The position numbers and the translations under genes are program-made. DNA of 64,000 nt from Chitinophagaceae bacterium (GTDB lineage: Bacteria; Bacteroidota; Bacteroidia; Chitinophagales; Chitinophagaceae): NCBI GenBank assembly GCA_019752045.1, contig JAIEMP010000004.1, forward strand, positions 1-64,000, in the 5' to 3' direction. Numbering within the stretch: position 1 is the first letter of the stretch; each line of letters begins with the position of its first letter. The notes beneath the pieces are model-generated. The model worked only from the letters and a program-made list of their open reading frames with translations, did not search any database and was not told the origin of the DNA. Positions 7,320 through 7,953 of this stretch are shown here, piece by piece.

Positions 7320-7529
7320 TTATTGTTGTGCAACTCTACAACTTGCATAAGTAGAGTTGCTTGAACACCAGTTTAATGCATTTAGTGGATCACTTGTTGT
7401 TACCCACCCTGTAATTTGTCCACTACCTGGAGTGCCAGAAAAACAAAGGCATGTAAATTCAGTTCCCCCTTGAATTTTTTTTTGTTCTTCTCGTGAAAGA
7501 ACTGTGCCGATTAACTTTAAATTTTTCAT
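7320..7529 (-). CDS. Double-glycine leader peptide, putative secreted natural-product precursor
   Basis: 69-residue peptide whose first 22 residues end in LSREEQKKIQGG. This matches the double-glycine leader type seen on Bacteroidota bacteriocin-like and natural-product precursors, where a C39-type peptidase cuts after GG during ABC export. The predicted 47-residue core is rich in Ser, Thr and Gly, and has four Cys (core positions 5, 7, 33 and 42) and two Trp, which fits disulfide or ring formation. No exporter, modifying enzyme or immunity gene is visible in the window. The next gene upstream on the same strand, 28 bp away, carries a related leader motif. The coding call rests on the leader match. 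Confidence 0.75.
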   Translation of the reverse strand: MKNLKLIGTVLSREEQKKIQGGTEFTCLCFSGTPGSGQITGWVTTSDPLNALNWCSSNSTYASCRVAQQ

Positions 7530-7557
7530 AAAAACATTTTAAATGATACCTACTCTT

Positions 7558-7953
7558 TTAAAGGTTTTCAGTATTCCCTTGCATTTCATATGCATTGTAA
7601 AGTTCTTTTGGGAAAGTGTCATCAAATGGCATTTTGAAAAATTTATAAAAATTCATAGGAAAATTCTGTATTGCAAAGCCCCCGCTAATTTCCTTTTGCT
7701 CATCTTTTGAAATTTCAGCTCCATTTTGAAAGAGTGATTTAGTCATACTTCCTTCTTCTGTATATATGTATGAGTTTCTTTTTTTATTATATTTTATTGG
7801 GAATCCCAAATTTTTAAGATCCTTTAAGTGTCTTAAAAGAGTTCTTCTGCTAGTTCCCACTTTTCTCGAAAATTCATCTGTGTTCCCTGTAGCTTTTCTT
7901 CTTATATAAAAATCTAATGAACTTATTAGTTTCAGGTATCTTTCTATTGACAT
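7558..7953 (-). CDS. HTH-domain protein with an embedded double-glycine leader motif
   Basis: 131-residue protein with two parts. Residues 1-66 form a helix-turn-helix of the HTH_11 type: residues 30-45 around RKVGTSRRTLLRHLKD look like the recognition helix, followed by a wing-like segment (PIKYNKKRNSYIY). Residues 74-92 read LFQNGAEISKDEQKEISGG, which lines up with the leader of the adjacent peptide gene (LIGTVLSREEQKKIQGG). The last 39 residues are aromatic-rich with no cysteine. It may regulate the peptide gene and may itself be cut at GG; both ideas are inference. It is transcribed divergently from murI across a 30-bp gap. Confidence 0.75.
   Translation of the reverse strand: MSIERYLKLISSLDFYIRRKATGNTDEFSRKVGTSRRTLLRHLKDLKNLGFPIKYNKKRNSYIYTEEGSMTKSLFQNGAEISKDEQKEISGGFAIQNFPMNFYKFFKMPFDDTFPKELYNAYEMQGNTENL

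Follow-up and report, generated by a model that had tools for sequence, protein, structure and literature searches.

A winged helix-turn-helix regulator with a fused double-glycine leader-like block, encoded beside a double-glycine peptide gene in a Chitinophagaceae bacterium, and its relatives

Regulators such as FlgM are exported by the machine that they control, and the rtg locus of pneumococcus, which is Rgg-regulated, reportedly holds a regulator together with a PCAT exporting double-glycine (GG) peptides, as do many of the loci described here. The parts of the rtg literature covered here mention no leader on the Rgg regulator, unlike P0001, the regulator described below. The likeness to FlgM is one of working, in that export capacity would be read through a regulator; the machine is a different one, FlgM is an anti-sigma factor and not an HTH repressor or activator, and no homology is claimed. 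For the double-glycine leaders of PCATs (ComA/ComC and LahT type) the C39 leader rule, as given in the sections of PMC10885120 consulted, is a hydrophobic residue at each of -12, -7 and -4 ahead of a GG, GA or GS site. The hydrophobic positions and the GG recur in many of the blocks described here, P0001 having two of the three positions; these blocks differ from those leaders in coming after a folded DNA-binding domain, where the leaders stand at the start of a small precursor, and in having a site that is often AG or absent. Bacteroidetocin regions, in the parts of PMC6671954 consulted, bring together genes for a TM protein, a GG-leader peptide, a thiol oxidoreductase and a C39 ABC transporter, and the last three are likewise found together in many of our regulator loci; the unit in our window has neither an adjoining exporter nor an oxidoreductase and falls outside that class, and the main text on bacteroidetocins, as far as it was covered, mentions no HTH protein or regulator. 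We recognised no description of a leader-fused HTH regulator in the literature covered, which included parts of PMC6671954, PMC10352776, PMC8939145 and PMC10885120 and had most subscription papers outside its scope; within the same scope, nothing in the DUF805 literature was recognisable as a regulator-leader fusion. No account of how double-glycine peptide loci are switched in these bacteria was found in the literature searched.

The window, that is, the whole stretch of DNA analysed, covers positions 1-64000 of contig C1 in a genome (G000) of 29 contigs. The features discussed here are as follows.

7558-7953, minus strand: P0001, the regulator open frame, 131 residues plus stop, with an ATG start
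7729..7953, minus strand: winged HTH DNA-binding domain, P0001 residues 1-75, from PF08279 and, for the domain end, comparison with short homologues
7684..7728, minus strand: leader-like block QNGAEISKDEQKEIS, P0001 residues 76-90, from the leader-matrix score and the recognition positions
7678..7683, minus strand: Gly-Gly, candidate C39 cut site by sequence, P0001 residues 91-92
7561..7677, minus strand: post-GG tail with several aromatic residues, P0001 residues 93-131, from the sequence
7547-7581, minus strand: DUF805b element (Rfam RF02914), 41.5 bits against a gathering score of 35.6
7320..7529, minus strand: P0002, a 69-residue peptide with the double-glycine leader MKNLKLIGTVLSREEQKKIQGG (15.9 bits) and a Cys-containing core

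The initial annotation, made from this DNA alone, had described an HTH domain joined to a leader-like block that aligns with the leader of the adjacent peptide, and both parts of that description were confirmed. P0001 matched HTH_11 (PF08279) only just, over residues 25-59 (25 bits versus a printed cut-off of 25, E-value 1.7e-5), and AEISKDEQKEIS-GG scored 15.7 bits on a leader matrix, close to the P0002 leader, with the next-best window of P0001 at -2.1. For this matrix, 102 unique leaders were taken from peptides lying near homologues in other genomes; a GG-requiring pattern had supplied those peptides, but the scoring itself is limited to the 12 residues that precede the site. When the 56-residue tail was shuffled 20,000 times, one shuffle reached 15.7 bits and none did so with GG following. 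The P0001 block and the P0002 leader align in the same register, with Gln at -7 in both sequences; P0001 has Ile at -12 and -4, so two of the three C39 recognition positions are hydrophobic, and P0002 likewise lacks a hydrophobic residue at -7. The GG at residues 91-92 is among the sites of the C39 rule, and the block, sitting after a 75-residue HTH domain, lacks the N-terminal position of a leader in a small precursor.

The limits first given for the block held only in part. The leader itself stands, but the segment 'GSMTKSLF' that had been included in it is probably the end of the winged HTH, as judged by short homologues, which have EGSFxIxF-like ends there and stop soon after, 'MTKSLF' falling where they carry the last domain strand; the leader proper of P0001 is therefore about residues 76-92. 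The 39-residue aromatic tail is likewise present, but its last seven codons and the stop overlap the DUF805b element, so that the extreme C-terminus of P0001 may reflect the element and not protein function alone. We considered an internal start at M70 that would give a free leader peptide and did not find it supported, as the Met is not constant in the printed rows and inspection by eye showed no start context that was conserved. An AlphaFold model of P0001 from the single sequence had a mean pLDDT of 42.9, a confidence too low for use; a sequence search of solved structures gave 12 matches (E-values 0.002-0.08), mostly antibody chains plus the HTH proteins NolR and Aca7, with no usable relative among them, and a tblastn search for related loci with P0001 found no relative.

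Protein searches did recover relatives. A search of its own family with P0001 found relatives in 57 of 394 genomes (E 1e-3), and profile A1 matched 70/396 genomes in the order and 19/295 in the class (E 1e-10). With profile A3 (E 1e-8), matches were found in 3/22, 46/241, 51/221 and 7/42 genomes in the orders of G753, G930, G919 and G875, respectively. Two plasmid matches came from Aureibacter and Persicobacter, and together with the gene content they suggest that the genomes searched are Bacteroidota. Six tailed members had no NCBIfam match over cut-off among the matches listed at E 0.1. We took 120 stretches with ~9 kb on each side where contigs allowed, several being cut by contig ends. An HTH model found 122 copies in 119 stretches, of which the wrongly split L211 was dropped to give 121; the remaining stretch, L202, is the exporter region of the window's genome and was left out of the count for want of an HTH. 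Among the 121 copies, 87 extend more than 20 residues past the domain and 34 do not, a ratio that is not a population frequency since we chose the stretches from match lists with tailed members first, and profile A3 was itself built from tailed members.

It is mainly the extended copies that are found beside export genes. A C39 exporter or VKOR gene was present in the stretch for 61/87 extended copies versus 3/34 short ones (p 4.9e-10), a GG-leader peptide, as detected by a GG-requiring pattern, lay within 1.5 kb of 69/87 versus 7/34 (p 3.1e-9), and either neighbour was found for 81/87 versus 7/34 (p 5.5e-15; six extended copies have neither), all three p-values ignoring kinship. By family group, the C39 or VKOR counts for extended versus short copies were 12/16 vs 1/13 (f1), 23/33 vs 0/9 (f61), 14/17 vs 1/7 (f18/12), 3/3 vs 0/1 (f26), and 9/18 vs 1/4 in other groups. 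This split by tail length was adopted with the data in view, after a split by strict matrix classes (43/121 positive) had given a weaker C39 result (30/43 versus 34/78, p 0.008); the peptide link under the matrix split was 38/43 versus 38/78 (p 1.1e-5). A quick domain tree requires at least 12 changes of the extension trait; well-supported branches force just two of these, which is too few for a kinship-corrected decision on the linkage. P0001 falls in a 21-row set of this tree (support 95) in which all rows are extended. HTH and leader-like block stay fused in relatives of several family-level groups, with leader peptides adjoining 69 of the 87 extended copies, which supports the initial annotation; the pattern it took as speaking against itself, an HTH kept without the GG block, is confined to the 34 short copies, which are mostly unlinked to export genes.

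Sixty-eight extended copies have a same-strand peptide, and in 64 of them the nearest one lies downstream of the regulator (median gap, 93.5 nt); many loci have an exporter-sized and an HlyD-sized ORF upstream of the regulator (identified by size; C39 by profile, with Pfam on examples). A compact set with exporter is found on pAT7, the 15,402-base plasmid of Aureibacter tunicatorum, in the order annotated HTH domain-containing protein ending MSATDMYHINGGSTLRSFANAGHIFFNFS, TolC, HlyD, and peptidase domain-containing ABC transporter. Beside its HTH gene the opposite strand encodes three small proteins with GG leaders, MENLSNTELSQLNGG being an example, and another small protein starts after the transporter, a gene order that differs from the usual one in the other loci.

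Hydrophobic residues at all of -12, -7 and -4 occurred in 38/72 regulator tails with a GG or AG site versus 2.1% of shuffles and 84/108 peptides, a count that favours the tails over the fixed-site shuffles because the site with most hydrophobic matches was chosen. Tail leaders also resemble the leaders of their own loci (mean 9.52 versus 6.37 when permuted, with 0/2000 permutations as high), and do so when permutation is kept within family groups (7.84; 7/2000 as high); this comparison covers the 55 of 64 tails that had a peptide and includes L272 and L274, whose sites were wrongly chosen. Taken together, the leader fusion is genuine, occurs repeatedly and matches the locus in which it sits.

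The cut site is kept less well than the leader. By a simple pattern, GG is present in 49/87 extended copies, AG in 21/87 and neither in 17/87, a pattern that miscounts at least L161 (where AAG is no site by eye) and probably L254; about 9 of the 17 copies without GG or AG look leader-like by eye, e.g., LTREEANGVGKP and LTAPELKNINLS. With one matrix threshold that does not require GG, GG was found in 55/57 downstream peptides versus 13/31 regulator tails (p 1.1e-8), the other tails having AG (13) or something else (5), and in group f61 the counts were 25/26 versus 1/12. Estimates of pN/pS rose from 0.18 in the HTH through 0.39 in the leader to 0.63 beyond the site (41 non-independent pairs with shared members); these come from the unfiltered run, and a run filtered on tail identity gave 0.14 for the HTH and 0.34 for the tail. 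The protein of L176 ends one residue after its GG. Evolution has held the leader more tightly than either the cut site or the product, which speaks for recognition that does not require cutting. Cutting after GG with release of the tail, which the initial annotation had suggested for P0001, does not look like a family rule. With its GG intact, P0001 itself may be cut.

The tails differ among clades in other ways. In L161, L167, L170, L172, L189 and their kin, LCFS-type tails end near LCFSxxxIFxxC with two cysteines, beside VKOR-thioredoxin genes, and GG is often lost in these regulators. Quite different regulators (L165, L181, L182, L187, L192, L193) have, by eye, like endings of FF..SP.ILD or.LLDG after GG or AG. 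The regulators of L270, L271, L275 and L276 lie 0-37 nt from a C39 exporter, and their tails have no GG or clear leader but have proline-rich ends in common.

No C39 gene was found in the window; the three C39 matches of the genome all lie outside it, the C39 exporter is ~336 kb away on the same contig, and the window unit stands alone. That exporter belongs to a set at ~339-348 kb of the contig, comprising a C39 ABC transporter, an HlyD protein and a VKOR-thioredoxin protein with a C39-like domain. The wider export region (~332-348 kb) also encodes thioredoxin-like proteins, and the peptide pattern picked out two GG-leader-like peptides in it. VKOR-thioredoxin proteins with an N-terminal Peptidase_C39 match (by Pfam on L161, L163 and L202, elsewhere by similarity) adjoin several LCFS-type regulators and are near some others, and several of the regulators that they adjoin are without GG. 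In an alignment of seven of these C39-like domains with five exporter C39 domains, none of the seven had Cys in the catalytic Cys column, the loss being clear in four and L161, L170 and L172 having a Cys one position off; six had clearly lost the His of the catalytic His column, and L172 has a His near that column. Judging from these residues, it is plausible that the VKOR C39-like domain would bind the leader without cutting it.

Downstream of P0001, P0002 starts 28 nt after the P0001 stop. P0002 scored 17.6 bits against the NCBIfam model leader_Chryseo (NF047798), a weak match that falls short of the cut-off of 23.5. The DUF805b element scores above the gathering score of its RNA family (RF02914), and its setting here is distinctive: it overlaps the stop codon of the upstream regulator, covering the last seven codons of P0001 plus the stop, and a GG-leader peptide follows, with 17 nt between the end of the element and the start of P0002. 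No other Rfam match in the window is at gathering level, and no other site in the genome passes the cut-off. A weaker site in the same genome (C2:481880-481914, L282; 28.1 bits, below cut-off) shortly precedes a 342-residue ORF that we read as an outer-membrane-like or secreted protein. A model (R1) built from ten sites, which match it by construction, listed 71 matches across the window and loci L161-L280, of which 48, all except the window's own and 22 weaker ones, were examined. Directly after an extended regulator gene stood 24 of the 48 (24/85 extended loci) and after a short one none; 32 of the 48 had a pattern-found GG peptide within 80 nt, mostly 18-29 nt away. We considered the element as the target of P0001 itself and did not find this supported, the element being present in 136/221 genomes of one order (E 1e-7) and the A3 profile in 51, with modest co-occurrence (39/51 genomes with A3 versus 97/170 without, p 0.014). 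Of 30 strong sites inspected, a GG-leader peptide follows about seven as judged by eye, or 11 under a loose script pattern. Elsewhere the elements stand before quite different genes and are not private to the regulator-peptide system. A TAnnTTTG promoter was found in 6/64 of the gaps between regulator and peptide, and with a -33 box in none.

The reading we favour, tentatively and with a confidence somewhat short of even, is that P0001 and its extended relatives are local regulators of a double-glycine peptide gene that wear the substrate tag of the exporter and dock on it, cutting being optional. The winged HTH would act near the peptide gene, the C-terminal leader helix would dock in the C39 leader groove of the exporter or in the C39-like domain of the VKOR-thioredoxin protein, and peptide precursors would compete for the same C39 groove; given that competition, the share of regulator held by the exporter would report free export capacity, and peptide transcription would follow it. 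Where GG is intact, as in P0001, the exporter may also cut the regulator, and where it is AG or lost there would be docking only. The computational support for docking consists of the fusion with its leader score and register, its recurrence, the linkage to exporters and peptides, tails that match nearby leaders, the hydrophobic pattern of the tails, a cut site conserved less well than the leader, the compact set on pAT7 and the VKOR proteins with a C39-like domain beside several regulators that lack GG. Against it stand the isolation of the window unit, the lack of a hydrophobic residue at -7 in P0001, the GG in 49/87 tails by simple pattern, the weaker C39 link under the matrix split, a sample of our own choosing with too few kinship-corrected pairs, the L176 protein that stops one residue past GG and the six extended copies with neither neighbour. 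We regard as possible, if rather doubtful, the broader proposal that a transcription factor family reads exporter occupancy through a substrate tag, queuing with its own cargo, and that in some clades an uncuttable tag is read by a C39-like sensor fused to a membrane disulfide-forming protein.

The circuit of the initial annotation, in which cleavage after GG by the C39 peptidase would release the regulator's tail as a signal and at the same time switch its DNA-binding half, fared unevenly, its fusion and neighbouring leader peptides being borne out and obligatory GG cutting as a rule not, with GG kept in 13 of 31 tails. It is possible for GG-bearing members, P0001 included, and the intact GG of P0001 and of 49/87 extended copies, tails recognisable within some clades (e.g., ...NYPLLFL) and the established cutting of peptides after GG by PCATs (parts of PMC10885120) all fit it. 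The AG of 21 copies, which is not among the GG, GA and GS motifs given in those parts of PMC10885120, the 17 with neither, the much better keeping of GG in peptides, the low constraint after the site and the single residue after GG in L176 make it unlikely; docking with optional cutting fits better than obligatory cutting and release, since conservation favours the leader over the cut site. Flux could also be read with no contact with the exporter if the tail filled a leader-binding site on the regulator itself and were displaced by free leaders left in the cytosol after export, the peptidase being described as releasing the leader during its cycle (parts of PMC10885120). This would account just as well for tails that resemble local leaders and for cut sites that have decayed. 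To our knowledge no leader-binding site on an HTH domain is known, and none was found here, model confidence being too low to look; we hold this reading to be very unlikely.

Two further readings would take the regulator's tail as something other than a tag. Were the HTH gene a peptide precursor, with the tail its product and the HTH a long leader-side domain, the two cysteines and LCFSxxxIFxxC kept by some tails beside VKOR-thioredoxin genes would be explained, but ordinary GG peptides lie within 1.5 kb of 69/87 extended copies, GG is often absent in the LCFS clade itself and the HTH is the most constrained part, which leaves this highly improbable. Alternatively the tail could be a relic of read-through fusion with the neighbouring leader-peptide gene, kept by chance; leader genes next door make such a fusion easy, and the tail is less constrained than the HTH. 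The leader's pN/pS of 0.39 (from the 41 non-independent pairs), a hydrophobic pattern much commoner than in shuffles, the presence of the fusion in several family groups and the supported 21-row set of P0001, all extended, speak against a relic, which we consider distinctly unlikely.

An export tag on a regulator encoded beside a secreted peptide suggests that peptide production may be coupled to the state of the cell's export machinery. Some double-glycine peptides are antibacterial, and if the coupling is true, these loci would have a built-in check that confines peptide synthesis to times when export is available. A regulator with an exporter tag would in turn be a marker for finding peptide loci, and the P0001-P0002 locus gives the DUF805b RNA family a genomic setting.
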